Of a stretch of DNA of 64,000 nucleotides, positions 13,767-42,466 are shown piece after piece. The notes beneath the pieces were generated by a model. The model was given only the letters and a program-made list of their open reading frames with translations. It did not search any database and was not told the DNA's origin. This DNA is from Pontixanthobacter aquaemixtae (GTDB lineage Bacteria > Pseudomonadota > Alphaproteobacteria > Sphingomonadales > Sphingomonadaceae). Where the stretch lies: assembly GCF_009827395.1 (NCBI RefSeq), contig NZ_WTYX01000001.1, positions 1,741,722 to 1,805,721 on the forward strand, in the 5' to 3' direction. Each line of letters begins with the position of its first letter. The stretch's first letter is position 1. A program made the position numbers and the translations under genes.

Positions 13767-16613
13767 ATGCCAGAGGCGGAAGCATTCTTTATAAATAAGC
13801 AGTTGCAAGCGCTCGATCCGCTTGCCCTTATCCGCCAAACCTTTTCCGAGCGAGAAGCCTTTCTCGCCGCCAAAGAGAAAATCACCAATACCGATATCCC
13901 TTTGGTGCCACCGGGGCAATTTACCACTGGCGTCACCTACCCTTCTGCCAAAGAAGGTAAACCCGAATGGCATCTACCCCATTACATCTTGCACCGGCAA
14001 AATGACCGCTGGTCGACCAACCTCACGCTTAATCGCGCGACTTCTGATCCGGGCGCGCCAATAGGTAGTCTGTCGATTGATCTGCAATCGCTGCCTCCGC
14101 CTGCCGGGCATGCGACAAGCCGCGCGATTCCGCACACATTGGCGCTCCGCCTGGGCTTCCACGTGCCGGTGGTCGGCGACCCGGCCACCGACAGCCCTGC
14201 CCCGCGCCCAGAAGGCGCCGCAGAATTCGCCGGTGACTGGGAGAATCTAGATCCCGATACAATCGGCATTGTCAAACTGGAAATCGCCCCAAACGGGCCC
14301 GACGATCTCATCGTCGTCGCTCACGAGAATTGTCCGCCAAAGCGCTGCATAGTCGGAAAGGAGCTGGCGCAATTCGTCGATGGCAAAGCGATGGTTTCCT
14401 TCCGCAGTGAAGCCAAAACGGTTTCATTGCACTTGAGCCGGGAAGGCGATCATCTGGTCGTCTCCGAACATGTCGACATTCACGATCCGCAGTCTCCCGG
14501 CGACTATCTGACGACGCATATATTCATGCTCAAACGGGCGATCCGCGATCTGCCTATCATCTGGATGGATCTTGGCACTCCCGATCCGGTCACCGGCAAT
14601 GTGCGCCGGTCCGTCACCCAGATACCCGATCACCAGACATATGCGCGCATCCTGTCAGTCATGACCGATCCTGTGCATGCTGCGCGGCTGGAGCTTACCT
14701 GTTCGGCGACGGTGGGGCAGCGCATCATGCGCCAGGTCTTTGTCGGAAATCTCCGGACAGCCGATTTTGTGGCGGAGACTGGCAAAAAATCCTTCGAAAT
14801 GGATCAGATAGTTGCGGCAACGATCCGAAACCAATTGGCTGCTGCTGTCCTGAACAATCCCGCGGATCTCAACAGCTTCAGTACTATCTTCGAAGTCCAC
14901 AAACCTGCAACTCTGCCCCCTCCTACACCGCCTCCACCGCCGCCGCACCGTGGCGATCTGGGGAGCATTCTAATTGGCGGGCTTGTATCCGGCCTCTTGC
15001 GCGGAAACTCTTCCGGTACGACGAGCGATTTCCGCAGTAGCTCGCGGTCCGAAGTTTCCGCGCGCTCCTCGCATATGTCCTCAGCGAGCAGAGAGGCCAT
15101 TTCGTCGCGCAATCGCGCGCGCGTGGACGCTGCCGAGCGATTCAGAATGGCACGCGATGCCGCGGGGACCGGGAACGCGGCACGGGCCGCCCTTCCCGCG
15201 ACCAATGCAGCAGCAACCTTGAAGATCGAGCAAGTCGCAAAGGAATCGCTGATAGATCGCAAGCTGCCGCGCCACACGCTTGTGGAGCCGACCGGCGAAC
15301 CGGTTTTGACCCGGCGCGGTGACAGCGCGGTCCAGATCGTTGCCCCCTTCACCTTCGATCTACAGCGTCATGCATATATGTTCGATATGCCCCCGGAAAA
15401 CGCACAGGGGCTGGTCTTGCTGCGGCACGAAGTGAGCACCGGCGGACGAACCGCCAGCTTCTTCCAGGAGGGTCTGGACAGCAAACTCTATTATTACGAA
15501 CCCGAGGAGTTCCGCCTCGCCCGCGATGACAATGCGCCATTTGCGCCATCGATGCTGTTCCACCTTAGCGAAGTGGTAGACCCAGAGGCAGATGAGGGCG
15601 AGGGAATCGCTTTCGAAGTCACCCTGACCTATCGCGCGGTTCCCTATATCAATCCGTCTTTACTCACACAGGCGCGCGCCGAATTCGGTCCGGATGCGCG
15701 CTTCGCCCCGATTTCGCCAACGATCAATTCGCTAACCATCAGCCTGCCCGGCGAAAGCGGAGCGGCTGACATCGTCCTTCGCGACGAAGCCGAGGTCGAT
15801 TTCAGCAACGGCATCAGCGACATGATCAACCTGACCGAAGATCAGTATTTGCAGTTCACACGCGCGCTGCAAACTGCTTCGGGCATCGGACTGGAAGGCC
15901 ATGTCGAGGCGGTCCTGATGGACGGCACGATTGCAAGCGTACCCGTCAGGGTCGGCCTGCGGGACAGTGCCGAGTTTGCATTCGATCATGCGGTGGACAG
16001 CGTGGACGCGAACACGGCCCGCGTGACATTGCGTAACCGGATCGAAAGCCCGGTGCGCATCGATCATATCCACGATGTTGCTTTGCCCGACGGCGCATCT
16101 GCCGCGCCAACCCAATTGGCCTCTGCCGACCCGATCGAACCCGGCGCAACGACCAATGTCGACTTTGCGCTGAACCCGCCGGGCACGCCATCAGCATCGC
16201 TTGATCCGCAATTCGATGCGTCTGTCCTGCCCGACTTTCTTGCGATCCTCAGCCAAACGACCATCACGCAAGGCTACTCTGATCGTGACTTCTCGATTGA
16301 TGTCAGCATTGACCCCGCCTTCTTTGCCTCCGCCGCATCCGATCTGGGCCCGCTGACCGCGATAGAGATCGCGTTTCGGACCCTGGAAGAGCCCGTTCTG
16401 CTCACCGCGGCGCAGCCGAGCCAGACGGTAACCCTGCCGATGCCGCTGTTGCTGTTCATCACCAATGCCAGCGACGCGCAGCATTACAGCTATCAAATCA
16501 CCGACATTCATGGCGGCGAACGCGGCGAGGCAACCGCCTACACCGCTGGCAGCGGCAATCTGGAAGTCACTCCGGTCGCAGGTGCCAACCCGTTTGGAGG
16601 AGGCTTCGGGTGA
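13767..16613 (+). CDS. Large protein of unknown function, first gene of the paralogue operon
   Basis: A 948-residue protein I do not recognise, with no signal peptide. An N-terminal region (about 1-370) is followed by a proline run (PPPTPPPPPP, about 384-393), a short Gly/Leu hydrophobic stretch and a Ser/Arg-rich linker (about 412-470). The C-terminal half (about 520-940) seems distantly related to the other operon proteins. Its KLYYYEPEEFRLARDDNAPF followed by beta-rich sequence parallels their FYYVP...I.VDD.G.P pattern, and a module resembling their tandem repeats lies near the end. ATG at 13767 is chosen with GAGGGA upstream; a TTG 24 bases earlier would add eight residues. The next gene overlaps its stop (TGATG), indicating translational coupling. 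Confidence 0.75.
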   Translation: MPEAEAFFINKQLQALDPLALIRQTFSEREAFLAAKEKITNTDIPLVPPGQFTTGVTYPSAKEGKPEWHLPHYILHRQNDRWSTNLTLNRATSDPGAPIGSLSIDLQSLPPPAGHATSRAIPHTLALRLGFHVPVVGDPATDSPAPRPEGAAEFAGDWENLDPDTIGIVKLEIAPNGPDDLIVVAHENCPPKRCIVGKELAQFVDGKAMVSFRSEAKTVSLHLSREGDHLVVSEHVDIHDPQSPGDYLTTHIFMLKRAIRDLPIIWMDLGTPDPVTGNVRRSVTQIPDHQTYARILSVMTDPVHAARLELTCSATVGQRIMRQVFVGNLRTADFVAETGKKSFEMDQIVAATIRNQLAAAVLNNPADLNSFSTIFEVHKPATLPPPTPPPPPPHRGDLGSILIGGLVSGLLRGNSSGTTSDFRSSSRSEVSARSSHMSSASREAISSRNRARVDAAERFRMARDAAGTGNAARAALPATNAAATLKIEQVAKESLIDRKLPRHTLVEPTGEPVLTRRGDSAVQIVAPFTFDLQRHAYMFDMPPENAQGLVLLRHEVSTGGRTASFFQEGLDSKLYYYEPEEFRLARDDNAPFAPSMLFHLSEVVDPEADEGEGIAFEVTLTYRAVPYINPSLLTQARAEFGPDARFAPISPTINSLTISLPGESGAADIVLRDEAEVDFSNGISDMINLTEDQYLQFTRALQTASGIGLEGHVEAVLMDGTIASVPVRVGLRDSAEFAFDHAVDSVDANTARVTLRNRIESPVRIDHIHDVALPDGASAAPTQLASADPIEPGATTNVDFALNPPGTPSASLDPQFDASVLPDFLAILSQTTITQGYSDRDFSIDVSIDPAFFASAASDLGPLTAIEIAFRTLEEPVLLTAAQPSQTVTLPMPLLLFITNASDAQHYSYQITDIHGGERGEATAYTAGSGNLEVTPVAGANPFGGGFG

Positions 16614-18346: not shown

Positions 18347-18380
18347 ACCAGCCCGCCATGGGCCAAAGGAGAAGAGCCAA

Positions 18381-20993
18381 ATGTTGACCGCACCAGCAGT
18401 TGCCGAAGTGGATGGTGTAACCATTTGGGCGGACGATACCGACTTCTTCCGCTTTTATCTGACCAGCGCCAATCCGCGCGTCAGGCTCGATGACAATGGC
18501 GATCCAGTCTTCCTGCTGGTCCAATATGACATGTCGGAAGAAGATCGCGCGGCCGACCCGACCTTGCCAAGCGGCGGCGGGTTCATGAATTTCGATGTGA
18601 CCTTTTCGATCACGGACGAAGAGGAAACCGCAGCACGCGACCTGATGCAGCCGCGCGTTGATGCCGAGTGGGAAAGGCTGCGCAACGGCACGGCCGAGGA
18701 AAAGAACAAGCGCGGCGTCAAAGGCACATCCGAAGCCCCACAAGTCGAATTTGCGAGCCCGACCTACACGCAGGGGACAGTCGAAATGTTCGCGCCGCAA
18801 TCCGATCTGCTTGTCGATGCGCAAGTGGCGCAAGGCGAACCCGATCTTCTGGCCGGCAATACTGCGGTGTTCAGCATCGATCTGAGCGCTGCCGGCTCCC
18901 AGTTCATGAGCGAAACGCTGACTGGAGGCGATGGGTCGGACCTGACCCCGATCCAGGTCGCGTATCATTTGAACTTCATGGCCCGATTGCCGCCTGTCGA
19001 TATCGTGGTTCTCGCCAACACCCAGCGCATTTACGAACAAACGCGCAAATATATGGACGGCGAAGGGCGCGATGCCTGTTCGACATACGATTTCAAGAAC
19101 TCCGACATCAACACAAGTACAGCCGAATTGAGCGGCATGATCGAGGTTAAGATCGATCCCGGCTCCAGCCATGTCACTGACGAGGTGATGGAGGAGCTAC
19201 GCCAATATGCGCTCGACATGATGCAATCCCAGATCGAGAGCAGCTTCTTCACCGACGATCCGCAAGATGCCTACTTTTCGCAATTCCCCGATGGCGCGCC
19301 TCCTGAATTTTTGGAGGAAGAATCAAACCGCAATCGCAACAACAAGAATTCGAAGAAGTATCTCAAGAAAGTCAGCGATACATCGACCATCGATCTGACC
19401 TTGAACCTGCAGCAGCACTCGGTCGTCGAGTGGAAGATCAATCCGCAATCCACATTGCAGACATTCTTTGCCGGAATGCCGCCAGCCCAAATCGAACGTT
19501 TCGTCCGGCAGGTGCGGACGGGCAGCCCGTTCTTCCAGTCGCTCAATCTCGGCGTCCGTGTATTTGGCGAATTTGATGACAGCGATCTCGAGGCCGTCGA
19601 AGTCCAGCTGCGCTATACAGGCTTCGACTTCAACGGGGAGAATTTGAGCAAGGAGAAGGTGCTGACCTTCACCGACAATAGCTCGCAAACGTGGAACCCC
19701 GACCTGATCGGCGCTGAACGCGAGGTCCAATATCGCCGTAGGATCAAGACCGCTGGCAGAGAGTTCGGCCCGTTTTCCTCGTGGGAACGGACAAAGGCCA
19801 ACGCGATCAATATTTCGGTGGCAAAACCGGGGCGGGTGCAACGCTCGATTGCGCAGGGCCTGCTCGATTTTGAATCGCTCGACCTCTCGGCGGCCGAAGT
19901 CACCCTGCGCTATCAAGACGGGGAGCTGGGCGTTGATCCGGTGGAAGAGGTGGTCGTGCTCAATCCCGCCACACCAACCGCCACTTTCGATCACCAGATC
20001 GGCGTGGAGGCACGCAAACCGGTTCTGTACCGGACGAAATATAAGTTCAAAAACAATGACATCATCGAAGACGAGGCGTTTCGCGAGAGCACATCGAACC
20101 TGATCCTGATTGATCATCCCTTCGAATCCACTCTGGCGGTGCAGCTTCTGCCGGTAGGAGTGGGGTGGAGCGAAGTCGTACAGACACAGGTCGCGCTGTC
20201 ATATGATGATGAAGACAGCAATTTCCACGCGCATGACGTGGTCACTCTGAAGACAAACCAGGATACGCGCGAATGGCTGGTGCGTCTGCGCGATCCGGAA
20301 ATGACCACCTACCGGTACGAAGTGATCACCAGCTACAAAGATGGTGATCACGACAGCAGCGGCGAACTGACCAGCAGCGGGTCGGGAATTTTGCCGATCG
20401 AAGTGCGCGAACCGCGCACGACCAAAGTTGTCATTGTGCCCAGCCGCATCAATTTCGAAGCTACGCCGAGCTGCGAAGTTGTGGTGACCCACGAAGCGTC
20501 CGGGACGGTTGAATCCTTCTTTATCGATAGTTCTAAAACCAGAGAATGGACGGTTCCCGTGAGGCCGAGCGATCCGCTGTCGTACAGCGCGGTTGTCACC
20601 TTCCATACGCCCGATGGCGAAGACATTGTTTTCGATCCAATCCATGGCGAAGACAACGCTCTGGTTTTGCCGCGCTACAATCCGCCGGAACCAGGAACCA
20701 TCCACTATCAGATCATGCCGACGCTGATCGATTTCGCGAAGACTCCGCTGGTCGTGGTCGAGCTACTCTACGAAGATGAAGCCAACGGCGTCCGGCACGA
20801 GAACAGCTTTGCGTTTTCGGCGTCGACGCAGAACATGGACTGGGAAATCCATGTCGAGGACAAAAACCGCAGATTGCTGCGCCAAGTAACGCGCCATTTC
20901 GTCGCTCCCGACAACATTCCGCACGAAGCCGAACCCGCATTCCAGACCAGCAACCTGCTGGTCCTGAAGCCCTTCGTCGCGCCCGAAATTTGA
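18381..20993 (+). CDS. Modular paralogue family protein (shared N-terminal region plus five tandem beta modules)
   Basis: An 870-residue protein of unknown function without a signal peptide. The N-terminal region (about 1-385) has DDTDFFRFYLTSANPRVRLD, NGDPVFLLV, a GGG turn, NTAVFSIDLSAAGSQFM and ARLPPVDIVVLANTQRIYEQ, all echoed in the other family members. A helical section (about 265-295) and a charged Asn/Lys stretch (about 313-330) follow. From about 390 to 863 there are five modules of some 90-100 residues with a shared rhythm: V.V.V.Y.D, then W, then Y.Y, then DG. These are probably beta-sandwich domains. The ribosome binding site is AAGGAGAAG, and the gene starts 34 bases after its neighbour in the same operon. 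Confidence 0.75.
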   Translation: MLTAPAVAEVDGVTIWADDTDFFRFYLTSANPRVRLDDNGDPVFLLVQYDMSEEDRAADPTLPSGGGFMNFDVTFSITDEEETAARDLMQPRVDAEWERLRNGTAEEKNKRGVKGTSEAPQVEFASPTYTQGTVEMFAPQSDLLVDAQVAQGEPDLLAGNTAVFSIDLSAAGSQFMSETLTGGDGSDLTPIQVAYHLNFMARLPPVDIVVLANTQRIYEQTRKYMDGEGRDACSTYDFKNSDINTSTAELSGMIEVKIDPGSSHVTDEVMEELRQYALDMMQSQIESSFFTDDPQDAYFSQFPDGAPPEFLEEESNRNRNNKNSKKYLKKVSDTSTIDLTLNLQQHSVVEWKINPQSTLQTFFAGMPPAQIERFVRQVRTGSPFFQSLNLGVRVFGEFDDSDLEAVEVQLRYTGFDFNGENLSKEKVLTFTDNSSQTWNPDLIGAEREVQYRRRIKTAGREFGPFSSWERTKANAINISVAKPGRVQRSIAQGLLDFESLDLSAAEVTLRYQDGELGVDPVEEVVVLNPATPTATFDHQIGVEARKPVLYRTKYKFKNNDIIEDEAFRESTSNLILIDHPFESTLAVQLLPVGVGWSEVVQTQVALSYDDEDSNFHAHDVVTLKTNQDTREWLVRLRDPEMTTYRYEVITSYKDGDHDSSGELTSSGSGILPIEVREPRTTKVVIVPSRINFEATPSCEVVVTHEASGTVESFFIDSSKTREWTVPVRPSDPLSYSAVVTFHTPDGEDIVFDPIHGEDNALVLPRYNPPEPGTIHYQIMPTLIDFAKTPLVVVELLYEDEANGVRHENSFAFSASTQNMDWEIHVEDKNRRLLRQVTRHFVAPDNIPHEAEPAFQTSNLLVLKPFVAPEI

Positions 20994-21018
20994 GAACCCA
21001 CCCGCCAGGAGAAACACC

Positions 21019-23754
21019 ATGCTGAAAGTCCCAGCCTTCCAATATTACGAAGACCTTCGCGTCACCGTCTATCAGGACGATACCGAGTGGTGGAAATTCT
21101 ACCTGCTGCCCGACTATGTCTCGATCCGCAAAGACATCAATGGCGATCCGGTGTTCCTTTTGGTGAAATACGCCTTTGGCGATCAGGACCGGGAAGAAAA
21201 CGAAGATTTACCGCGCGGCGGCGGATTGATGGCCTTTGACATCGAACTGACCGTTCAGGAATCCGATGAACCCGATTTGCGGGATCGCTTGCAAAGTTAT
21301 GTCGACCGCGAATGGAACCGGCTGAAAAGCTTTGCCGATGCCGCGAACCACGACATTGAAAGCCTGACACTGAACAGCTGGCACAACCGCACCAATGGTG
21401 TGCCGCGACCAGCGGGTGACCCGACCACCCCGCCCAGCCTGACGATCGATGACGTTTCGCTTGGCCTCAACCCGGATCGGCCCACTGCGCCCCCGGGTGA
21501 CGCCCCGCCGCAGATCCAGCTGTCCTACCCCGAATTTACCGAGGGGACATTCACCGTCCTTGCGCCGCAATCTGACGGGTTGGTCACCCATTCGATTACC
21601 GAAGGCCCGCTTTCGCTGACCGGCCCCAACACAGCGGCCGTGATGATCGAGCTTACCGAAGCGGGTGCCACTTTCATGCAGCAAACTCTGGTCGAAACCA
21701 GCGGTGTCGGGGCGACCAATCTGGTTCCGCTGGGCGCGCGAATGGACCTCAAATTCAAAGCCCGCATCCCGCCCGCTTCGCTGCATGTGAAAGCAGACAC
21801 CCGATCGGTCTACAAAGCGATGGAATCCATCGATCACGACTATGACGACTACGCATGCCGCGAAGATGACATCGCGCATTACGAAACGATGATGGAAGCC
21901 GCCATCGAGTCCAAATTGATCGATGTCACACTCGATACCGGCGAGCTCGATCTCGAAAGCGATCTGGTGGAAGAGCTGATGGGCATCTCGATGGAGCTGA
22001 TCCGCGATCTTCTGTCAGAAGAACTGTTCGAGGAGACCGATCCGCCAGACGATGTTGATGACGACCTGCTGAAAGAGAAGACCGACTATTACATCATGAA
22101 GCAAGAGGAGCGGATATCCTTCAAAACGATGAATACCAAGATCGAGATCAATTCGATCATCGAAGCTGAAAAGCACCCGCAAGGGACCATGCAGGCATTC
22201 TTTGCCGGCGTTCCGAAATCCAAAATGAACCAGTTTGTCCGGGTGGTAAATCTGGACGATGATTTCTTCAAAACGCTCGGCCTGACGGTCAATTGCTTTG
22301 CCGATTGGGAAAACGATCCAATCGCCTTTGTCGAAGTGCAAATCCAATATGACGGCCGCAACGAGCAAGGCCAGATCGAGCAAAAGCAGGAAACCTTCAC
22401 GTTCGACAAAGACACTACGTCTGGCGAATGGGACCCGAGCCTGATCGGCAAACAGCGCGGATACAAATACCGTTGGCGCCTGGCCTATACCGGTCAGGAA
22501 GCAGGCGAATTCTCGCGCTGGGAAAAAGAGCGCAGCCCGATGCTCAACATTACGGTTCCGTCCAGCGGTCGGATCAATCTGCCGATCATCGCCGGCAATG
22601 TCGATTTCCAGCAAACCGTGCAACAGGTCCAGATCGCTGTCAGCTACGAAGACCGCAGCGACGATGTGGCTTCGCAAACCGAAAACTTCGTCCTGATGGC
22701 CGGGCAGTTGGAACAGACCTACAGCCGTGATCTGTTCACCGATTGGGACAAGGAAATCACCTACAAGCCGACTTTCATACTGAAAGACGGGCAAGTGATC
22801 GAGGGCGACGAGCAATCGACCGATGAACGCTCGCTGCTCATCAATGCACCCCTGTTTGACAAGCTGGATGTCAATTTTGTTCTCGTGGCATCGCAGGCCG
22901 CCGATATCGCGCAGGTCTTGATCGATGTGCGATATGATGACGATGCGAATGACTATCACGTCGATGAAGTCCTTCGCCTGAAAGACGCCAACGAGTTCAA
23001 GAGCTGGTCGGTGGTGCTTCAGGACCGCGACAATCGCAATTTCCGCTACAAAGCCGTTATCACTTTCAATGACGGCACGATGACCGACACCGGCTTCATC
23101 GAGATGGAAGGTGACCAAACCATCCCGATCAAGGGGAATGCCCCTCCGCGTCTGAATGTCACGGTGATGCCCAGCGTTATCGATTTCGGGACCACGCCGC
23201 TGGTGACCTGCGATTTGCGGTACCGCGATCCCGACAATGCGATCGATGCGCGCAAGACGCTGTTCTTCGACACCAATAACAAGGCGCCGGTTCCGTGGAC
23301 ATTGCCAATTTCGGATTCCTCACGACAGACATATAGCTACGATGTTGATTACCATGCCCTGTCGGGGACGATTGACCGCGAAGAGATCGAAACCGACGAC
23401 GGTGTGCTGGTGATCAAGCGGGCGATCGTGCCCGAAGTGAAGTGCATATTCACCTGCACCCAGATCAATTTCACCGACACCCCCGTTGTTGAACTCCAGA
23501 TCGAATATACCGATCCGGTCAACGGCAATGATATGAGCGACACGCTGATCGTCAGCAGCGTCGCTGACAATCCGGTGTTCCAGCACATGGTGCAGGAAGA
23601 CAGCCCGCGCGAATTCACGCTGACGCGGATCTACCACTTGGCTGACGGCCAAGTTCATCAGGACGATCCGCAGGTCATCAACCGCAAGCGCTACGTCATT
23701 CCGCGGCACATGCCCGACCCGGTGGTGGTTGAAGAACCGGACACCCCCGAATGA
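21019..23754 (+). CDS. Modular paralogue family protein (five tandem beta modules)
   Basis: A 911-residue protein, very similar in layout to the preceding one. The N-terminal region (about 1-410) has VTVYQDDTEWWKFYLLPDYV, NGDPVFLLVKYAF, GGGLMAFDIEL, NTAAVMIELTEAGATFMQQT and KARIPPASLHVKADTRSVYK. HPQGTMQAFFAGVPKSKM at about 386-403 matches NPQSTLQTFFAGMPPAQI in the neighbour. Five modules follow at about 420-514, 517-611, 612-706, 709-800 and 803-897. A Pro-rich loop (about 128-165) and an acidic stretch (about 335-350) are specific to this copy. There is no signal peptide or membrane segment. AGGAGAAACACC precedes the ATG, 25 bases after the previous stop. The two genes look like a tandem duplication. 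Confidence 0.77.
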   Translation: MLKVPAFQYYEDLRVTVYQDDTEWWKFYLLPDYVSIRKDINGDPVFLLVKYAFGDQDREENEDLPRGGGLMAFDIELTVQESDEPDLRDRLQSYVDREWNRLKSFADAANHDIESLTLNSWHNRTNGVPRPAGDPTTPPSLTIDDVSLGLNPDRPTAPPGDAPPQIQLSYPEFTEGTFTVLAPQSDGLVTHSITEGPLSLTGPNTAAVMIELTEAGATFMQQTLVETSGVGATNLVPLGARMDLKFKARIPPASLHVKADTRSVYKAMESIDHDYDDYACREDDIAHYETMMEAAIESKLIDVTLDTGELDLESDLVEELMGISMELIRDLLSEELFEETDPPDDVDDDLLKEKTDYYIMKQEERISFKTMNTKIEINSIIEAEKHPQGTMQAFFAGVPKSKMNQFVRVVNLDDDFFKTLGLTVNCFADWENDPIAFVEVQIQYDGRNEQGQIEQKQETFTFDKDTTSGEWDPSLIGKQRGYKYRWRLAYTGQEAGEFSRWEKERSPMLNITVPSSGRINLPIIAGNVDFQQTVQQVQIAVSYEDRSDDVASQTENFVLMAGQLEQTYSRDLFTDWDKEITYKPTFILKDGQVIEGDEQSTDERSLLINAPLFDKLDVNFVLVASQAADIAQVLIDVRYDDDANDYHVDEVLRLKDANEFKSWSVVLQDRDNRNFRYKAVITFNDGTMTDTGFIEMEGDQTIPIKGNAPPRLNVTVMPSVIDFGTTPLVTCDLRYRDPDNAIDARKTLFFDTNNKAPVPWTLPISDSSRQTYSYDVDYHALSGTIDREEIETDDGVLVIKRAIVPEVKCIFTCTQINFTDTPVVELQIEYTDPVNGNDMSDTLIVSSVADNPVFQHMVQEDSPREFTLTRIYHLADGQVHQDDPQVINRKRYVIPRHMPDPVVVEEPDTPE

Positions 23755-23806
23755 TGGCGAACCACTTTTCCCGAAAACGAAAGCTGCATCTGCAGGAGAA
23801 TGAGCC

Positions 23807-26200
23807 ATGCTGAAACTGGGCCCTCCCTACTTCGACATAGAAGGCGTTGCCGTGATGAGCGACGCCCATGATGACCGGCAATTCTACTATGTCCCCAACG
23901 CCCCGCACATTGCGGTTGATGACCAGGGACGTCCGGCCATCCGGTTCATCGTGCTGAAGGATGCGCACGATGCGATCATCGGCAATTCCGACGATACCGA
24001 GAGCTTGCCCGCTGGCGAAGATAGTGAAGATATCAGCGGTTTCCTGTTCTTTGACACCGTTCTGAGTTGGCCGGACGAAACGCTCAACAAAGTCCGCAAG
24101 GAGCTATCCAAACGTCTGGAAGATGCGCACGAGGAAGAGACCGGAGAGCGCATCGAGATTGAAGTACAGCTCGCTCCCTTGCCTTACCGCAAGGGCTCTG
24201 TGCGATTGACGATGCTGGACAAGACAACGCGCGAAATCCAGATCGAGCCCGAACTCGGCCCCGATGGCGAACCGCTCACCGAACCGGAGACCGAAACTGT
24301 CTCTGCGTGGGTGCCCTTCGCCCATACCCCCGGAGTTCCGTCGCTCTATGGCGAGAACCGTGCCGTATTTCAGGCAAAGCTTAGCCGAAAGGCCGTCAAG
24401 CTACTATATGGTGCGTTCTCCGGTTTGATCCCGGCCTCCGTCTATTACGATTTGCAATATGTCGGGCAAATGCAGGGCTACAATGTGAGCGTGTCAGCCG
24501 ACTGGGAGCAAGTCTACGACTTCATCCAAAAGCGTCATGGGGTCAATCTCGGTTTCTTCTCTGCAGATGTCGAGAAAACCACCACGGAGATGATCGAGAA
24601 CAAGATCATCAATATCGAAGCCGAGGTTGATGCCACCGAAACCGACATCGCCGTCGAACAGCAAATGGACGATTTCGAGACTGTGAAAAGCGATCTGCAG
24701 GACATGGTCTTGCAGACCTTCTTCGAACCAACCACCAACCCCAATGAAGATCCCGATTCTATAAACACGCTGTCCCGGCTTCACGGCCTCAAAACAAGCT
24801 GGGCCCCGGTCGGCTATTCCCGCCGCGAGCTTTCTGTCACCGAGCTGCGTTCGATTTCGGTCGATTATACTGTCCGCCGCGCTGTCAAACGGCGGATTGC
24901 GCCGCAAGCGCATATGCATGTCTTCTTCGAAGATCTGAATGTCACGCGCGACGATCTTGTGACCGTTGTGGATGGCAACGATTCCATCTGGCGCGAAGTC
25001 GACATGCAGGTTGGCGTGAATGGCGATTTTGAACGCAACGACATCAACCAGGTCGTGGTCGATGTTCAATATACCAAGACGCTTGATCTGGAACCGGATC
25101 TGGAAGCCGACCCTGACGCGCAATGGAGCTTCGTGTTCGAAACCGGCGAAGAACGCTTCAACCGCTCAAGCTGGTACAGCGACGATGTAGGAACCAATTT
25201 TTTCTACCGGTACCGGGTATTCTTCAACGGCAGCGGCCTGCCCGGCCCGGCCAGCTCCGCCGCCAGCGAATGGCGACGGATCGACAGCAATGTGATCATG
25301 GCCGACACGGCCGAGTTGTTCGAACGGCAAGACGTGCAAATCCAGGCCGTCAATAGTTTCCCTTGGGATCGCTATCCGCAAGTTTTCGTGCGGCTGCGTT
25401 ATGACGACACAGTGTCCGAATGGCGGCACGAAGATGCCAAGCTCCTTTCGCAAAATGATGCGATATTCACCACCGCTTTCCGCCAACGCGCGAAGGACGG
25501 GATCGAGCCAGAATATCAGCTGCAATATCTGCGTAATGATGGCGAGTCGATCACGACCGCTTGGGAGCCTGTTAAAGGCGATATCGAGCTGATCCTCAGT
25601 CCGGACCCGCAGCAGATGGAAGTGCGGGTCATCGTGAGCCCGGCAACCCGCATTGGCGATCACGGCTTTGTCATTGTCGACATGAACTACGAGGATGTGG
25701 ACAACAACGTTTCCGAGACTGTCAGCATGATGTTCACTGCCGACAATGTCCGCCTGCCGCAAACCTGGAAAGTTCCGTGGAAGGACCCGACGAAGCGCCG
25801 GTACAAGATGAGCCAGCTGATCATCGATTCCGAAGGCAATGTCACCAATACGGGCTTTGTCGAGACAGAGGGAAATACCCAGATTGTCGGGACAACTTTT
25901 GCCAAGACAATGACCGTCCAGCCCAAGATGATCGGGCCGGAGCTTGGCCCCCAAAACATCGACAAGATCATGCTTCGGCTGAAATATGAAGATGCGGCCA
26001 ACGGTGTGCTGAGCGAGCGCATGCATGAGATATCCGCACCCGGGGACGTTCCCAGTTGGACGGTGATGCTGAAAGACGCATCGCTGCGCGAATATAGTTA
26101 CGAGCTGACCTATGTGCTCAATACAGGCTTTACCCAATCGACCGGAATACGCACGCAAAGCGATAATTTCCCGATCTTTTCAACGGCGCTGCCCGAGTGA
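23807..26200 (+). CDS. Modular paralogue family protein (four tandem beta modules)
   Basis: A 797-residue member of the same family. The N-terminal region starts MLKLGPPYFDIEGVAVMSDA and has DDRQFYYVPNAPHIAVDDQG, GFLFFDTVLSW, ENRAVFQAKLSRKAVKLLYG and YDLQYVGQMQGYNVSVSADW. A predicted helical or coiled-coil section (about 250-305) precedes four modules at about 398-500, 501-598, 600-697 and 700-795. It has no signal peptide. The ribosome binding site GCAGGAG lies before the ATG. Its stop overlaps the GTG start of the next gene (GTGA at 26197-26200), which indicates coupled translation. Function is unknown. Confidence 0.75.
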   Translation: MLKLGPPYFDIEGVAVMSDAHDDRQFYYVPNAPHIAVDDQGRPAIRFIVLKDAHDAIIGNSDDTESLPAGEDSEDISGFLFFDTVLSWPDETLNKVRKELSKRLEDAHEEETGERIEIEVQLAPLPYRKGSVRLTMLDKTTREIQIEPELGPDGEPLTEPETETVSAWVPFAHTPGVPSLYGENRAVFQAKLSRKAVKLLYGAFSGLIPASVYYDLQYVGQMQGYNVSVSADWEQVYDFIQKRHGVNLGFFSADVEKTTTEMIENKIINIEAEVDATETDIAVEQQMDDFETVKSDLQDMVLQTFFEPTTNPNEDPDSINTLSRLHGLKTSWAPVGYSRRELSVTELRSISVDYTVRRAVKRRIAPQAHMHVFFEDLNVTRDDLVTVVDGNDSIWREVDMQVGVNGDFERNDINQVVVDVQYTKTLDLEPDLEADPDAQWSFVFETGEERFNRSSWYSDDVGTNFFYRYRVFFNGSGLPGPASSAASEWRRIDSNVIMADTAELFERQDVQIQAVNSFPWDRYPQVFVRLRYDDTVSEWRHEDAKLLSQNDAIFTTAFRQRAKDGIEPEYQLQYLRNDGESITTAWEPVKGDIELILSPDPQQMEVRVIVSPATRIGDHGFVIVDMNYEDVDNNVSETVSMMFTADNVRLPQTWKVPWKDPTKRRYKMSQLIIDSEGNVTNTGFVETEGNTQIVGTTFAKTMTVQPKMIGPELGPQNIDKIMLRLKYEDAANGVLSERMHEISAPGDVPSWTVMLKDASLREYSYELTYVLNTGFTQSTGIRTQSDNFPIFSTALPE

Positions 26201-27090
26201 GCCTAACCGCCCGCCTCGACGCTTCTGAAGGAAGCAAATTTTCGCCTGTGGAAGCACCGGCGGAAAGTGCGGATGTGGCGGCCCCTGTCCCCACACGGAG
26301 CTGTATCGAGGGCGGGGGTGATCTGATGGTGACCTTTCACGCTCCCGGACCGGTTACTCGTGGGACCGCCACCAGCACAAGCAAGCCCTGCGGCCCGGGC
26401 GCACGGCACTGGGATCGCGCGGCACAAGGCAAACCACCGGGCGAAACTATCATTTGGATGGACTCGCGCGGCGGGAGTTTGGGCGAGGTTCTGGAATTCC
26501 TACCCAAACCAGGCGCTCCTGATCTGTTCGCTGAGCGGCTCGGCTTCCTCCGGTCATGCGGGCGCATCTACATGGCGACAAAGGCGGAGCCCGAGACCGG
26601 CGAAAGCTGGCTTTCATTCGCTCTCGACCGCCGCGTTTCGCCGCGTCAGGCGCTGACGAATTTGGGATGCATAGGCGGATGGCCGGCAGCGCAAGGCATG
26701 TTGTCGCGCGTTTTTGGCCGGACAGTCACCGAACGCACCCGGCCATGGAGTATCGCACTCCCGCTTTCCGGCGAAGCTCTGGAAAGCCGGACCTTCCGTC
26801 TCGGCACCGCCGCATGGGGCCGCCTCCCCGAAGACGCGGGCAAGCGTGCGCATATGGCCGCAGCACTCGATGAAACGGGCGGCGACGGCTCCGGTGCTGC
26901 CGATGACTATGCCGCAATCGCCGCATTGCACACCGGCCCACTCAACTTCGCCAACGCCATAGGCTCTGCGGCCGAAGTCGATGTGAGCCCGAATGGGGCA
27001 CAGGGCCTGCTGCTGACCCTGAGAACCCAAACCCCCAATTTCAACGCCCCGAATTCCCAATCCAAACCTGACAACCGAGGAGACACCTGA
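26197..27090 (+). CDS. Unknown 297-residue protein coupled to the subtilisin gene
   Basis: A 297-residue protein I do not recognise. It starts with GTG overlapping the previous stop, and its own stop overlaps the ATG of the peptidase gene (TGATG), so it is translationally coupled on both sides. It has no signal peptide and does not show the repeat modules of its neighbours. Several cysteines are spread through it (SCIEGG, KPCGPG, RSCGRIY, LGCIGG), and the C-terminus is low in complexity and rich in Asn, Pro and Gln. Because it directly precedes the protease, it could be a chaperone, inhibitor or substrate of it, but only the gene order supports this. Confidence 0.65.
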   Translation: MSLTARLDASEGSKFSPVEAPAESADVAAPVPTRSCIEGGGDLMVTFHAPGPVTRGTATSTSKPCGPGARHWDRAAQGKPPGETIIWMDSRGGSLGEVLEFLPKPGAPDLFAERLGFLRSCGRIYMATKAEPETGESWLSFALDRRVSPRQALTNLGCIGGWPAAQGMLSRVFGRTVTERTRPWSIALPLSGEALESRTFRLGTAAWGRLPEDAGKRAHMAAALDETGGDGSGAADDYAAIAALHTGPLNFANAIGSAAEVDVSPNGAQGLLLTLRTQTPNFNAPNSQSKPDNRGDT

Positions 27091-30000
27091 TGTCCAAGAT
27101 TAATCCTGACCTCCAGCTCACACTTCGTTCACTCCTCAACGAAGATTTGAGCGACGAGGCGCGAGAGGCCCTGGGTGTTGGCGTCAATGAAGATGGCACC
27201 GACCAGATATTGGTGATGGTGCAATTTTCAGGCGAATCCGCCCCGCTTGTTGAGGCTGGTCTCACCATTATTACCCGTAATGATGATCTGGTTACCGGAT
27301 CGATCGCGCCTGAGAACGTCGAGGCGCTCGCTGCAATTGAGTCAGTGCAAAGGATTGAAGGCGATTCACCACTTGAGCCAGAAGTTCAGCTATCCGTTGC
27401 GGACGTGCGGGCCGACCAGGTGAATTCTGGAGCCGGGATAGGTACTCCGCCTACCAACTATACTGGCAACGGCGTCATTGTCGGCATTATCGATTCAGGC
27501 ACCGACTACCAACACAGCGCATTCAGAAATGGAAACGATTCCCGAATCTTGAACATCTGGGATCAAGGGCTCACTCCGCAAGGAGCCGAAACACCACCCA
27601 ATGGGTACGGCGGTGCGGGGGTCGTCTACGACCGTACAGAAATCAATGCCGCGTTGGCGTCTGCCAATCCTCTATCCAGAGTACGCCATGTCGGTGGCGA
27701 TCATGGAACGCATGTTGCCTCAATCGCGGCCGGCAATTCAGCGACCCACCCTGGTATCGCAACGGGCGCTGATCTCATTGTCGTCCGATCCAGTCCTACC
27801 TCAATCCACGCTCTGCATGCCCTTAGCTTTATCTATGACACCGCATCATCGTTAAATCGCCCATGCGTGGTCAATCAAAGCCAAGGTCATCATCGGGGGG
27901 CCGCACATGATGGCACCTCTCTTTACGAACGCCATATCAACAAACTTCTTGGTCGACCCGGCCGCGCATACGTGAAGTCGGCAGGCAATGATGGTGATAA
28001 CGATGTGCACCATTCAGATGTCGTGCCCGCGAATGGAAGTGTGACATTTCAGGTGCAGGTCAGGCCCAATCAAGGCAAGACCGATCTGGATATTTGGTAT
28101 CCCACAGGAACCAATCTCAGCGTGAAGATCACCGATCCTGCGGGCACGGATCATGGCCCCCATGTGCAACCGCCGGATGGGGGTGAATTACCGCTTCCTG
28201 TTCCAACAATAACTGCAGGCGGTACATCCGTGGAGTTTGCATTCGAAACAGACTTCACTCCCAATCATCACAACCAGATTGTGATCCGAAAAACCAATGT
28301 TTTCCCCGGGCAAATCGATGGGGGCAATTGGACAATTACGCTGACCAATCCGACCGGCAGTCCTGTTGAAATCGATGCGTATCTTCATCCGAACCGAGGG
28401 GGTTACGGATTTGTTCGGGCACCCGCTCCGGTCGGGGAATCAGCGAGTGACCGGGCCGCCAGGCTCGCTCGCAACGCCGCCCAAAGCATATCGATACCTG
28501 GCACTGCGCACGAAGCAATCGCTGTGGGTAGTTATGTTACCAGGATCAGCTCGCTCAACACGCCAGTTGGCGAAATATCGAGCTTTTCAAGCCGCGGGAA
28601 AACCCGCGATGGACGTATCAAGCCCGACCTGTGCGCACCCGGCGAAATCATCGAAGCAGCCCAAGCAGGCACGGCCGCTGGTCATGTGTTTATGGGAGGA
28701 ACTTCGATGGCGGCCCCGCACGTTACCGGTGCAATCGCGCTGTTGCTGGAGAAACAACCTACCCTTACGCAGGAGCAAATACGCAAGGGACTGCAGACCA
28801 CCTGCAGAACCGATGCGCGAACAGGAACAGGTAGCCAAGTCCCCAACAATACATGGGGCTACGGCAAACTCGATGCGCGCGCATTGTTGGAATATGAATT
28901 CCCTGCATCCGAAACGCGCAATTGGGTACGCATCCGGTCCAGCCTTTACAATTGGACCGAGGGGGACACCCCTCCCAGTTTCGAAATCATGTCCAATGAA
29001 AACGGCCGCGCTGTTGTCGAGCTCGCATGGGGTTCAACCGATATTCCCCAACGCCCTGCGCGAACCCCTGCAGAGCCGATACGCTACTACACCACAGCCG
29101 AGCATCTGACGGCGAACATTAACAAGGCTGATGGTTCGACCATGGCTCTCGACATTCCCGAACAGCAGATCGTGCTGACCGGTAACAAGGCCACATGGAC
29201 CATGCCGCAAGATCTGTGGGACGCCTATCGGGAGGAATTAAACAAGGCGCGCCAAACCCCGCCGCAAAGCCAGATGGGGCAAATGCTCTATTATCGGGTC
29301 CGATTTGAACCGACCGGGGCAGCATCGGCAATAATCTGGCCGGACGATTCATCCTTCAACGCATCACCGTTCAACAACCGGATGAATATCATCGCGCTGA
29401 ACGTTGATCCGATTACCCAGGTGGTCCCCGATCGGGCGGCAATGTTGGCCATGCCGCGACACGCCAGCGAGCTCGAATGGCTATGGCAGAACTTGCCGGA
29501 GGACAATCCCGACCGGATTTCCCTTGCGAATATCTTCAGCCACCGCTTCTTCACCAACCAGATGGAAGTTGAGCTTCGCGGAAAGCTGCTGACCCTGTGG
29601 GTTCAGGCGGGGCCCGCACGCTTGTGGCTTTACACCATGCTGGATCGCCAATTCCGGACCGATGCCGGATTGGAAATGACCGTTCTGAAACAACCATGCA
29701 TCCGCGAAAATATCATGCTGATCGATCATTTGCTCGAGCTACCGAACATCGTCCCCCACCCTGACATTGCCGGGGTTCGCGTGTCTGAACAATTGCTCGA
29801 CGATGTGCTGACCGAAATTCGCGATCCCAATGGCCAGATGAATCAGGGACTGGCCGGCACCTGCGCCCCAACAGGGATCCAGACGCTGCTGATCAATGAA
29901 AACGCGGCAGAATATGTGCGGCTGATGCGCGGTCTGTTGTCGGTCGGCAAGCAAGCTACTCTCGCGAATGGAGATGTGATTGAGCCACCGCCGGGAATTT

Positions 30001-30569
30001 ACCGCGTGGCGCTATATGCAGGAGCCCAATCAATCGGCTTCTACGCGCGCACGAATTCTGAGCTCGGTTTCCAGGCCACCATGCTCAAATATGCGAAAGG
30101 ATCCGGTTTCCCTCAATATGATCCTTCCGCGCCGCCGAATGATCCCAACGGAATAAACACGGTATTCCAAACGACGATTGCCGGCGGCCTGACTTTTGAG
30201 GAGATCGAGACCCTGCTGGAAGGGCTGTTCAACAAACCATTCACCCGCACTCATTCGTCGCAGCCCACCGCCGCATTGCGCAACCAGTTGGTGACCGCAA
30301 TGGGCAGCACGAGCGAGCCTCTGCTGACTGTCCTGAAATGGGGTCCATCGACCTCGCCGGGCCTGCATGCGGTGCTGTCATTGCGCCACGAAAGCGGGCG
30401 GCTGATGTTCAAGAACCCGCAATATACGGGCGAGACGGCCCCAGCTGATTGGCAACCCAATTCAAGCCAGGAAAACCCGCCCAGGTTGCTCGATGATCCC
30501 ACACAAGCCCTTGAATCGATGGGCGATGACGACCTGTCCGGTTGGGTTCGCGCCTATTACTCCGCTTGA
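27090..30569 (+). CDS. Two-domain peptidase: subtilisin (S8) with C-terminal papain-like cysteine-peptidase domain
   Basis: A 1159-residue protein. Residues 35-95 look like a subtilisin propeptide. The S8 domain has Asp135 (VGIIDSGTD), His205 (GGDHGTHVAS), oxyanion Asn300 (SAGN) and Ser539 (GGTSMAAPH). A beta-rich insert (about 310-440) separates the oxyanion and serine segments, as in CspB-like or PPC-containing subtilases. After a middle region (about 610-890) of unknown fold, the C-terminal domain has MNQGLAGTCAPTGIQTLL (Cys925 with upstream Gln919), GLHAVLSL (His1093) and FKNPQY (Asn1109). This is the order and spacing of a papain-like Cys/His/Asn triad. There is no signal peptide. It sits in the paralogue operon and may process those proteins. 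The S8 call is firm; the cysteine-peptidase call is inference from motifs. Confidence 0.85.
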   Translation: MSKINPDLQLTLRSLLNEDLSDEAREALGVGVNEDGTDQILVMVQFSGESAPLVEAGLTIITRNDDLVTGSIAPENVEALAAIESVQRIEGDSPLEPEVQLSVADVRADQVNSGAGIGTPPTNYTGNGVIVGIIDSGTDYQHSAFRNGNDSRILNIWDQGLTPQGAETPPNGYGGAGVVYDRTEINAALASANPLSRVRHVGGDHGTHVASIAAGNSATHPGIATGADLIVVRSSPTSIHALHALSFIYDTASSLNRPCVVNQSQGHHRGAAHDGTSLYERHINKLLGRPGRAYVKSAGNDGDNDVHHSDVVPANGSVTFQVQVRPNQGKTDLDIWYPTGTNLSVKITDPAGTDHGPHVQPPDGGELPLPVPTITAGGTSVEFAFETDFTPNHHNQIVIRKTNVFPGQIDGGNWTITLTNPTGSPVEIDAYLHPNRGGYGFVRAPAPVGESASDRAARLARNAAQSISIPGTAHEAIAVGSYVTRISSLNTPVGEISSFSSRGKTRDGRIKPDLCAPGEIIEAAQAGTAAGHVFMGGTSMAAPHVTGAIALLLEKQPTLTQEQIRKGLQTTCRTDARTGTGSQVPNNTWGYGKLDARALLEYEFPASETRNWVRIRSSLYNWTEGDTPPSFEIMSNENGRAVVELAWGSTDIPQRPARTPAEPIRYYTTAEHLTANINKADGSTMALDIPEQQIVLTGNKATWTMPQDLWDAYREELNKARQTPPQSQMGQMLYYRVRFEPTGAASAIIWPDDSSFNASPFNNRMNIIALNVDPITQVVPDRAAMLAMPRHASELEWLWQNLPEDNPDRISLANIFSHRFFTNQMEVELRGKLLTLWVQAGPARLWLYTMLDRQFRTDAGLEMTVLKQPCIRENIMLIDHLLELPNIVPHPDIAGVRVSEQLLDDVLTEIRDPNGQMNQGLAGTCAPTGIQTLLINENAAEYVRLMRGLLSVGKQATLANGDVIEPPPGIYRVALYAGAQSIGFYARTNSELGFQATMLKYAKGSGFPQYDPSAPPNDPNGINTVFQTTIAGGLTFEEIETLLEGLFNKPFTRTHSSQPTAALRNQLVTAMGSTSEPLLTVLKWGPSTSPGLHAVLSLRHESGRLMFKNPQYTGETAPADWQPNSSQENPPRLLDDPTQALESMGDDDLSGWVRAYYSA

Positions 30570-30597
30570 TCGCGGCTAGATTGCAGGAGAAATTCCA

Positions 30598-33066
30598 ATG
30601 CTCGCACTTTATGACAAAACTCAGGCCATTCCCGGCGTAATCGTATATCGTGATCATCAAGACCCCGGGCAATTCTACTTCATTTCCGAACGCCCGCGCA
30701 TCGCACGCAACAATGGTGTGCCCGCGTTAAGCTTTGTGAAGTTTCGCCGCGACATCACCGACAATGTCGATTTCGAGGAAGGCGATTCACTTGGCGGCGG
30801 CATTCTCAACTTCACCGTCGATCTTGCCGTGACAGAACGCGAGCAGGACCAGATCAAACGGGAAATCAAGCGCGCGTTCGAGAATGTGCCAGAAAACATC
30901 AAACTGGCCCCGGTTTCGGTGCGCGATGGATCGGTACGCCTTTCGGTAATGCGCGACGCCGCCGACGATCCGGAGGCATCACCCGATGCTCCGCGCGGAT
31001 TGCGGCTGTTCGAGGAAGTGCATGGTTCAACAAAACCCTCGCTGATCGGTGACCAACGGGCGACTTTTACCGTGATGCTCAACCGCGAGATGGCAACGGC
31101 GATGGAGCAGACTCTGCGCGGCGGAGTGAGCATGTTCGGCGTGAATTACCAGCTGTTCTTCCTCGGAATGACACCGGCGATGAGCGTGAAGGTCGAAGCT
31201 GACTACAAGCGGGTCTATACCTCGCTCGAGACTGAACTCGGTGTCCAGGGCCAGATACAGGCTGTCAGCATTGCTGCGGATATCGAGGCAGCATATCAGA
31301 AGCTGCGTGAAGACGGTGTGATCAAGGTGGAAATTACCGAATTCACCGACGATGCCGACCTGAAGGCCAAAGGCCACGCCGCATGGGACTGGTTCAAGGG
31401 CCAGCTGACTGCCGACTTTTTCCAGAGCACGATGCCCGTGCCAGCAATCATGCAGCCCGATTCAGGCGGGGGAATTCTTGGCAGGTTGCAAGATATGTTC
31501 GGTGCAATCCCGCGCGCTCCCGCGACAGGGTCGCTATCACCCGGGCGCGGCGCAGCTGCCACCACTCCGCCCAATACAGCCCCAGCTGCAACCGGGCCGT
31601 CTGACCAGGTTACACCCACAACCGAAACCAATCGCCGCGAAGCCGCAGCGCGTGGTGGCGGGGGCGGCTCTGGTGCGGGAAATCTCGCATCCGAACTTTC
31701 ACCCTTCCGCGTCGGGTTTTCGCTCAAGATCATGCATCAGGACGAGCTGCGCACACGCCGCTTCGATTACAATTTGCAAAGCGCGATCCAGGCGGAGGCG
31801 AATCCTAACGGTATGTTCTCCGGCCTCGTTGACGGATTCAATATGGACGATCTCATTTTCGAGGTTGATATGGACGATCCGTTCTTCGATCGCCTGCGGA
31901 CCACTGTCACGATGGGGCAGGATCTGGCCGCAATTGGGGTCTCTTCGGTCGCGGTGAATATGGAATATCCCGGCGAACGAGAAGCCGGCGAAAATGCCGA
32001 GCATATCGACGGATTTGAATTCCGCCCCGGCGACAGCGAGAACAAGCTGTTCACCACATTCCTCGATGACGATGGAACGCGTGAATATCGCTACCGTATG
32101 ACAATCACATTCGATCCGACAACCGAATGGCGCGGGAAAGACAGCCAGGTGGTCACTCCTTGGTTGGTCTCTGCCGAAACGCAATTGACGCTTGCACCAA
32201 TCGATGCGGTTGAACGGCTCGACGTCGAGATTGCGCTAAGCAACCAGCACTCCGAAAGCGTCACCCAAGTTGAAGTCGAGGTGCGCTACGAGAATCCCGC
32301 AACCGGCTTCAAGGACAACCGTACATTCGTTCTTGAACCGGGCGGGGAAAGCCACAACTGGCGGCTCCGCCTGGCTGACAATGCGCCGCGCGGATATGAA
32401 TATCGCGTTCGCTATTTCTTCGCGCAAGGCAACACGATGATCGAAACGCCTTGGGAAGAACGCGATCAGCCTTCGATCATCGTGAATGTTCCCTTCCGCA
32501 GCAAGCATCGGGTGATGGTCAATCCTCTCCTGCTCGATTCCGCAAACCTGCTGCAGGCCATCGTCGATATCGAATACAGAGAGCCGGACACCGGATACAC
32601 GGTTGCGATGCGCCAGGAATTTATGGGCGGCGATGTGTTGGTCCCGCAGAGTTTCGAAATTCCGACGCTGGCGGAAGACCCGCCGCCAATCGTCTATTCG
32701 ACGACCATCCTCAAGCTCGACGGACAAGTGATCACCGAACGCGATCAGGAAACCGAAAGCGGGATCATACTCCTCAGCGAAGGGACCGGGGTTGTTCAGC
32801 GTGTCGAAGTGCGCTTGCCGCAGGACTCGCTGGGGTCGTTCCAAGCACTCAAGGTGGATTTGACAGGTCGCGGTGATGTGCCAGACACAACCTCTGTCAT
32901 ATTCACCCCGAGCCAGACTCAGAAACAGCTTGCAGCGTTGGTCCAGCCATCTGGCCGGTTCAAAACCTATGATTTCAAGGTGACGGGATACGACCAGTTG
33001 GGTGTTGCGTCAGAGCTGGCAGCGGGCAGCAGCACCGACCGGGTGATGATCGTTCCGATGCAATAG
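30598..33066 (+). CDS. Modular paralogue family protein (four modules, long low-complexity linker)
   Basis: An 822-residue family member and the last gene of the operon. The N-terminal region has IPGVIVYRDHQDPGQFYFIS, GGGILNFTVDLAVTE, DQRATFTVMLNREMATAMEQ and YQLFFLGMTPAMSVKVEADY. A linker at about 290-363, rich in Pro, Thr, Ala and Gly and ending in a poly-Gly tract, divides it from a second section (about 365-430). Four modules follow at about 435-538, 539-632, 633-729 and 730-820. It has no signal peptide. The ribosome binding site is CAGGAGAAATTCC, 28 bases after the peptidase gene. The flexible linker could be a cleavage site for the neighbouring proteases, though nothing in the sequence proves that. 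Confidence 0.75.
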   Translation: MLALYDKTQAIPGVIVYRDHQDPGQFYFISERPRIARNNGVPALSFVKFRRDITDNVDFEEGDSLGGGILNFTVDLAVTEREQDQIKREIKRAFENVPENIKLAPVSVRDGSVRLSVMRDAADDPEASPDAPRGLRLFEEVHGSTKPSLIGDQRATFTVMLNREMATAMEQTLRGGVSMFGVNYQLFFLGMTPAMSVKVEADYKRVYTSLETELGVQGQIQAVSIAADIEAAYQKLREDGVIKVEITEFTDDADLKAKGHAAWDWFKGQLTADFFQSTMPVPAIMQPDSGGGILGRLQDMFGAIPRAPATGSLSPGRGAAATTPPNTAPAATGPSDQVTPTTETNRREAAARGGGGGSGAGNLASELSPFRVGFSLKIMHQDELRTRRFDYNLQSAIQAEANPNGMFSGLVDGFNMDDLIFEVDMDDPFFDRLRTTVTMGQDLAAIGVSSVAVNMEYPGEREAGENAEHIDGFEFRPGDSENKLFTTFLDDDGTREYRYRMTITFDPTTEWRGKDSQVVTPWLVSAETQLTLAPIDAVERLDVEIALSNQHSESVTQVEVEVRYENPATGFKDNRTFVLEPGGESHNWRLRLADNAPRGYEYRVRYFFAQGNTMIETPWEERDQPSIIVNVPFRSKHRVMVNPLLLDSANLLQAIVDIEYREPDTGYTVAMRQEFMGGDVLVPQSFEIPTLAEDPPPIVYSTTILKLDGQVITERDQETESGIILLSEGTGVVQRVEVRLPQDSLGSFQALKVDLTGRGDVPDTTSVIFTPSQTQKQLAALVQPSGRFKTYDFKVTGYDQLGVASELAAGSSTDRVMIVPMQ

Positions 33067-42419: not shown

Positions 42420-42466
42420 CTTCTCGTCCACCTATTTTATTCTGTGCAACTGCTACCGGCTTTGCC

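Follow-up and report, generated by a model that had tools for sequence, protein, structure and literature searches.

We analyzed a 64,000-nucleotide stretch of the genome of Pontixanthobacter aquaemixtae (contig NZ_WTYX01000001.1, positions 1,741,722 to 1,805,721), hereafter called the window, and focused on an operon of eight plus-strand open reading frames (ORFs), g1 to g8, located at positions 13767 to 33066 of the window. Neighboring genes overlap by 1 to 4 bases or lie no more than 52 bases apart; from g1 to g8, the junctions are, in order, an overlap of 4 bases, gaps of 34, 25, and 52 bases, overlaps of 4 and 1 bases, and a gap of 28 bases. We placed the start of g1 at ATG 13767 (the mechanical ORF opens at TTG 13743), and three rhizobial homologues start at the same place. 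An AGGAG or GGAG site precedes six of the eight genes, the exceptions being g1 and g6. Hydropathy values (Kyte-Doolittle, 19-residue windows) peaked at 1.46 over the eight proteins and at 0.74 within their first 45 residues. Because these maxima are low, the scan, which stood in for a dedicated predictor, gives no sign of a signal peptide or a membrane-spanning segment in g1 to g8, and eight Pararhizobium homologue proteins likewise showed no signal peptide by hydropathy. An earlier interpretation made from the letters of the window (the sequence-only reading) had described tightly packed plus-strand genes, AGGAG sites before most of them, and signal-less products; the ORF coordinates, the six sites, and the hydropathy scan agree with that description.

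A family of six paralogues and a protease

Six of the eight proteins belong to one family. The four large paralogues, g3, g4, g5, and g8, were joined by BLAST (g3-g4, 28% identity, E = 5e-113; g5-g8, E = 7e-32) and consist of a ∼285-residue domain, termed the N-domain, a linker, and four or five tandem ∼93-residue beta-sandwich repeats. In g3 (18381 to 20993; 870 aa), the N-domain spans 18381 to 19277 and five repeats span 19533 to 20972; g4 (21019 to 23754; 911 aa) has its N-domain at 21019 to 22044 and five repeats at 22267 to 23706; g5 (23807 to 26200; 797 aa) has its N-domain at 23807 to 24742 and four repeats at 24989 to 26185; and g8 (30598 to 33066; 822 aa) has its N-domain at 30598 to 31455, a linker at 31438 to 31710, and four repeats at 31885 to 33057. 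A hidden Markov model (HMM) built from one repeat recovered all 18 units as contiguous arrays (5 in g3, 5 in g4, 4 in g5, and 4 in g8), the last repeat of g8 being weak (E = 0.036), and gave no match in the g1, g2, g6, and g7 proteins of the window or in one shuffled set. The short paralogue g2 (16610 to 18346; 578 aa) matched the family over its full length and was joined to the large paralogues by hhalign (98.3%, E = 2.3e-14, 557 columns); its homologues from Pararhizobium and Mariprofundaceae matched the repeat HMM weakly (E = 9e-5 and 3e-4). The weakest link is that of g1 (13767 to 16613; 948 aa), which is made of an N-terminal half without a known match, a proline-rich linker, and a C-terminal half with a diverged N-domain (residues 562 to 665 aligned). 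It joined the family in this C-terminal half only (hhalign, 74%, E = 2.8e-5, 97 columns), and one additional HMM match, of the g1 profile to the g8 homologue of an Anaerolineae genome (E = 3e-4), supports the link. The six diverged copies proposed earlier are thus recovered, by BLAST for g3, g4, g5, and g8, by profile for g2, and over half of the protein for g1. The remaining two proteins, g6 (26197 to 27090; 297 aa) and g7, fell outside the paralogue family (hhalign, 0.1% each) and double as negative controls. The sequence-only reading had listed g6 as an unknown; it has no library match and is not an N-domain protein. We also considered g6 as a DMATS-like barrel and dropped this assignment (hhalign, 0.1 to 0.2%).

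The g7 gene (27090 to 30569) encodes an S8 subtilisin followed by a second domain, g7C. The N-terminal part (27090 to 28904; residues 1 to 605) begins with a propeptide-like segment, as judged by eye, and matched the S8 family (PF00082) with an E value of 8.4e-37 and 127.5 bits against a cut-off of 21.8; the best NCBIfam model, CspBA, was well under its cut-off. It carries DSG at 135, HGTH at 205, and GTSMA at 537, the motifs of the Asp/His/Ser triad (D135/H205/S539). It differs from the S8 family in its fusion to a papain-like domain family that occurs without S8 in the other loci. This domain (28923 to 30569; 548 aa, residues 612 to 1158) contains a tetrad, Q919, C925, H1093, and N1109, that is invariant in the alignment rows of six of six homologues. 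The Q-C spacing of 6 and the H-N spacing of 16 equal those of papain, a member of the papain-like cysteine peptidases of clan CA, and g7C gave no HMM match to Pfam or to PDB sequences. Since the assignment is made from the tetrad motif, we regard g7C as a likely, not a proven, papain-like peptidase. Of the earlier proposal of a subtilisin with a second peptidase-like domain, the first part is therefore confirmed and the second is likely.

We then examined whether any of these proteins had been named. With Pfam, NCBIfam, PHROGs, and PADLOC, subtilisin was the sole significant family in g1 to g8, and the other matches were at chance level, the best of them being PHROG 36300 (a virion structural family) against the proline-rich stretch of g1 (E = 0.013). 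The N-domain had no match in these four libraries or in the PDB; Pfam matches were at chance level in 20 of 20 N-domain members (best E = 0.053), and PDB sequence profile searches with the paralogues, g7C, and g6 likewise returned chance-level matches. The AlphaFold2 model of g8 (20-row alignment; predicted local distance difference test [pLDDT], 75.6) displays an alpha/beta N-domain at residues 1 to 280, a disordered linker rich in P, G, A, and T at residues 281 to 371, and then a chain of beta-sandwiches; its predicted template modeling score is 0.40, so the relative placement of the domains is unreliable. The N-domain of g8 modeled alone reached a pLDDT of 70.3. A literature search on the operon parts and accession numbers, with most subscription papers and all preprints outside its coverage, found no description of the system. 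The earlier statement that no named system has this gene set thus holds for the libraries and literature searched.

Conservation and turnover of the gene set

We found homologues of g1 to g8 in the same order on plasmid p2 of Pararhizobium qamdonense and in Rhizobium Root483D2 (97 to 99.8% identical to the Pararhizobium locus), Mesorhizobium Root552, and Shinella curvata. A fifth complete set, also in the same order, occurs in an Anaerolineae metagenome-assembled genome (MAG) of the Chloroflexota, with an extra 270-residue ORF between g2 and g3. The g6 homologues occupy the same place in the rhizobia and in Anaerolineae. A Mesorhizobium MAG contig starts within g7C and carries g8, and a Mariprofundaceae MAG has a reduced set composed of g1, g2, one g3/g4-like gene, g5, g7C, and g8, to which it adds a NAL1-like peptidase (trypsin type, as a NAL1 C-terminal domain) and an amidase; its g6-like gene was aligned by position and has only 19% identity. 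The ratio of nonsynonymous to synonymous substitutions (dN/dS) was 0.07 to 0.28 in 16 of 16 rhizobial comparisons, indicating purifying selection on all eight genes; g7C had the lowest value in one species pair (0.068), and in the other pair only g4 (0.099) was below it (0.102). Because the gene order recurs in other genomes and the genes are under purifying selection in rhizobia, the operon is more than a chance assembly. The set is conserved together in other genomes, so the condition that the sequence-only reading had set for its own refutation, a set kept together in no other genome, does not hold.

More diverged relatives retain the paralogues with other enzymes around them: every relative locus that we read as a cluster has at least two paralogues, bar the incomplete contig L020, and the enzymes vary. 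In Paracoccus sp. SMMA_5_TC, a g1 homologue accompanies five large paralogues that have both the N-domain and the repeats. This g1 homologue (P11; hhalign, 96.5%, E = 7e-10) is not the first gene of its cluster, the place that g1 homologues hold in the rhizobia, Anaerolineae, Mariprofundaceae, and two genomes of the window's class, G1277 and G1479. A phospholipase D-like gene lies inside the Paracoccus cluster, which is followed by genes for a terpene-cyclase-like/DMATS-like protein, a tyrosinase, and a trypsin. Immediately upstream of the Paracoccus paralogues (L012, 14984 to 19871), we noted an EAD1-trypsin, an EAD1 protein, and a STAND-like ATPase. Both G1277 and G1479 contain g1-like genes and paralogues, and G1277 additionally has a g2-like gene, a short N-domain protein, a sub-threshold DMATS-like gene, and a terpene-cyclase-like gene; some mechanical ORFs in these two genomes are out of frame and were not counted whole (for example, L058 4676 to 6655, of which the C-terminal part alone is an N-domain). 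G1590 has three N-domain matches.

A 38-kb Ruegeria plasmid carries an operon of small proteins (L055, 11829 to 18091) that is possibly a minimal version. Two of its products are N-domain proteins (HMM E values of 9e-16 and 3e-11; hhalign, 97.0% for one of them) with no repeat HMM match, and for this reason the smallest form of the family may be the N-domain by itself. They adjoin a protein with a peptidoglycan-binding domain, and five of the six operon proteins begin, as annotated, with a hydrophobic segment. The same plasmid carries AbiE genes, and helicase and methyltransferase genes lie farther away. Two further ORFs (L055, 13276 to 14214 and 14215 to 15201) looked N-domain-like by eye and were not counted (hhalign, 1.2% and 0.3%). 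In three loci (L032, 1323 to 2135; L013, 16843 to 17682; L012, 31050 to 31751), proteins of 233 to 279 residues are encoded between paralogues; they are perhaps stand-alone N-domains, which the profile comparison (3%) does not support, and the window is without this gene.

This survey changes the place of g7, around which the sequence-only reading had built the operon. The S8 head is missing from all six whole g7 homologues (568 to 588 residues; 536 in Mariprofundaceae), that is, from the five other complete sets and the Mariprofundaceae MAG, and thus occurs, among the loci seen, only in the window. The g7C domain itself was not found in any of the six frames of the Paracoccus, G1277, G1479, and Ruegeria stretches. 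The constant part is formed by the N-domain paralogues. The repeats accompany them in most lineages, with none in Ruegeria, and the enzymes that vary beside them include peptidases, an amidase, phospholipase D, tyrosinase, and prenyltransferase-like genes.

The gene set is rare and patchy. Of 60 relatives, one had a match, and this was the genome of the window itself; none of 7 congeners had one. Matches were also obtained in 2 of 398 genomes of the window's phylum and 3 of 385 of its class (its own included in both), in 1 of 400 Chloroflexota and 2 of 247 genomes of a rhizobial family (all already found), and in 3 of 10 genomes of the family of G1277. These samples overlap one another, and misses are possible in the scans of the 60 relatives and of the 398 genomes of the phylum since the queries were one protein and a four-row profile. 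A genome contig search found six loci with g7C and no match with g3 alone; phage records had no match to g5 or to one Ruegeria protein, and viral contigs had none to g8, g7C, or a Ruegeria protein. In three congeners (G004, G005, and G007), synteny of the left flank extends as far as the TonB-receptor gene (window 9454 to 12876), and none of the window ORFs to the right of this gene was found in the ∼9 to 10 kb beyond; the contig of a fourth congener (G002) was too short for the comparison. The operon therefore starts at a synteny break, which fits gain by transfer. A five-gene tree of six taxa, with the window and the rhizobia as one clade (approximately unbiased test, P = 0.407), speaks neither for nor against transfer, and the fumarylacetoacetase of the window's genome has up to 73% identity to plasmid-borne enzymes, many of them rhizobial.

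Several neighboring genes were also recorded. Upstream of the operon in three rhizobia is a gene for a ∼1,420-residue protein (L034, 7266 to 11537, minus strand; also L031 and L033) with a P450 match near its start and a DyP-type peroxidase (TIGR01413) above cut-off at its end; this P450-DyP fusion also occurs in G1011 at 52% identity, with one stop read through. Other rhizobial neighbors are a divergent Crp-like gene for a regulator and a cyclase. The Anaerolineae set has beside it a divergent TIR-WD40 protein (948 residues; L032, 7021 to 9867) with PADLOC TIR matches. A DMATS-like family lies beside or is fused to a terpene-cyclase-like protein in L056 (15097 to 16967), L058 (1431 to 2372), and L012 (36277 to 38373); these DMATS matches are below cut-off (E = 0.007 to 0.04). 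In the window itself (34808 to 42431, minus strand), HlyD, an ABC transporter, and a TolC-like protein make up a type 1 secretion set beside an M10 serralysin-like protease with PPC domains; the ABC transporter has a best match of 34% identity among the seven congeners (G006). The window also has a gene for a 1,165-residue protein with an RTX calcium-binding match (43114 to 46611, minus strand), which is followed by a polysaccharide export (SLBB) gene (46741 to 47922).

A proposed scaffold and its alternatives

Since the N-domain paralogues are constant while the surrounding enzymes turn over, we propose, tentatively and at somewhat short of even chances, that the products of the operon form a hetero-oligomeric scaffold, built from six N-domain paralogues and equipped with repeat arms, which carries or controls swappable enzymes. 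Packed together, the N-domains would make up the core of the assembly, with a separate position for each paralogue, which would explain why six distinct orthologues are kept in distant hosts. The four or five beta-sandwich repeats of g3, g4, g5, and g8 may act as stiff arms that hold or recognize other proteins. In the eight-gene type, g7C would be the matching enzyme and would mature or trigger the assembly, the subtilisin fused to it in the window species would be an extra payload, and other enzymes would fill the payload places in the relatives. Cleavage of the parts of a large assembly by the operon protease, as suggested by the sequence-only reading, is plausible. Biological conflict, in defense or antagonism, would be the likely use, as suggested by the EAD1 and STAND-like genes in Paracoccus, the TIR-WD40 protein in Anaerolineae, the AbiE, helicase, and methyltransferase genes in Ruegeria, and the rarity of the set.

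Several observations weigh against this proposal. A search of the PDB with the N-domain model by Foldseek gave nothing at E ≤ 1e-3 (best E = 3e-3, template modeling [TM] score of 0.18), so that no fold match speaks for an assembling domain, and g7C was called a peptidase by motif, with no relevant Pfam match in six members and no PDB peptidase match. Of g1 to g8, only g7 matched the antiphage models of PADLOC 2.0, namely subtilase (3e-26) and, weakly, IetS. The conflict-domain neighbors differ by lineage and may be there by chance, and large Chloroflexota genomes often encode TIR-WD40 proteins. Two of the loci are MAG contigs, assigned to organisms by binning. The Crp-like regulator, P450-DyP fusion, and cyclase of the rhizobia point to physiology as much as to conflict, and the DMATS-like and terpene-cyclase-like genes of the diverged relatives likewise leave room for metabolism.

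These last genes are what a maturation or biosynthetic complex, in which the scaffold would arrange tailoring enzymes for a modified peptide or lipid, would draw upon: DMATS-like, terpene-cyclase-like, Rieske oxygenase, tyrosinase, and P450-DyP genes lie in or beside relatives, and cyanobactin pathways combine a subtilisin and a prenyltransferase. However, the DMATS matches are sub-threshold, the eight-gene sets showed no gene of this kind, and the P450-DyP gene also occurs in G1011, from a rhizobial family sample in which G453 and G455 were the only genomes to match the paralogue profile; we consider this explanation quite unlikely. We give a slim chance to a secreted or injected surface structure, such as an adhesin or a tail- or toxin-complex-like assembly. 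The beta-sandwich repeat chains are reminiscent of phage and surface proteins, the window has a type 1 secretion set immediately downstream of the operon, and the Ruegeria operon has its hydrophobic starts and peptidoglycan-binding domain. Yet hydropathy revealed no signal peptide in the window or in the eight Pararhizobium proteins, and phage records and viral contigs had no match with the queries tried. PHROGs gave no tail homologue (sheath, tube, baseplate, or spike), which also sets the operon apart from contractile injection systems, and g7 matches protease families.

Among the closest described systems are the NTP-dependent conflict systems of Kaur et al. 2020 (PMC7159879), namely System 3 and the EAD1-linked systems. 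If the operon were a proteolysis-gated system of the System 3 kind, a protease cascade would free an effector upon invasion, with the giant paralogues as sensors or inhibitors. The part of that paper that treats these systems describes mostly alphaproteobacterial operons with a trypsin, some with S8, papain-like, and EAD1 parts, and thus a similar mixture of peptidase families and swappable enzymes; the window has a subtilisin and a papain-like domain, and the EAD1-trypsin, EAD1 protein, and STAND-like ATPase adjoin the Paracoccus set. Nevertheless, the NucA endonuclease (Endonuclease NS) was not found in g1 to g8 or in ten scanned Paracoccus proteins (P4 to P7 were outside the scan), neither EAD1 nor STAND was matched in the window operon, and the trypsin-like core of System 3 is not in it, trypsin-type peptidases being present in the Paracoccus and Mariprofundaceae loci. 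It has instead six giant paralogues, which the same text does not name, and we judge this alternative unlikely. A protease trap or guard related to alpha-2-macroglobulin (A2M), in which beta-sandwich chains would restrain proteases, is decidedly improbable. Proteases accompany several sets, the best PDB match of g8 by Foldseek was an A2M (E = 4e-8), with mastigoneme and complement proteins next in rank, and the Pseudomonas Mag operon for a type II bacterial A2M (PMC5764988), from what its text covers, also combines a beta-sandwich chain protein with complex-forming partners. The listed matches, though, have TM scores of 0.04 to 0.17 (0.05 to 0.09 for A2M), and unrelated immunoglobulin/FN3 chains, such as receptor FN3, rank alike at 7 to 12% identity; we therefore take the similarity as generic to beta-sandwich chains and set A2M homology of g8 aside. 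Furthermore, g5 and g8 contain no cysteine and hence no thioester, and unlike Mag, which in that text has one periplasmic A2M protein, MagD, the window has six paralogues with no A2M match in Pfam or NCBIfam and no signal peptide. With NucA, trypsin, EAD1, and A2M not found in the window operon, neither the Kaur systems nor Mag offers it a home, and we rate it as a new kind of system, the fold comparison having covered the PDB.

To return to the scaffold, its boldest form, possible though doubtful, would be a new bacterial nanomachine, an ordered hetero-hexamer of new-fold N-domains with arms that serves as a chassis for lineage-specific enzymes in conflict or self-modification. The six giant paralogues, kept in a fixed order in Pseudomonadota and a Chloroflexota MAG, with an N-domain that is unnamed in the libraries used and with changing enzymes around them, look like a modular machine. 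For asking what the operon builds, there are a delimited gene set, what may be a minimal version in Ruegeria, and tractable hosts in the rhizobia. Should either half of our proposal be true, the operon would add an assembly principle or a conflict system of a new kind.

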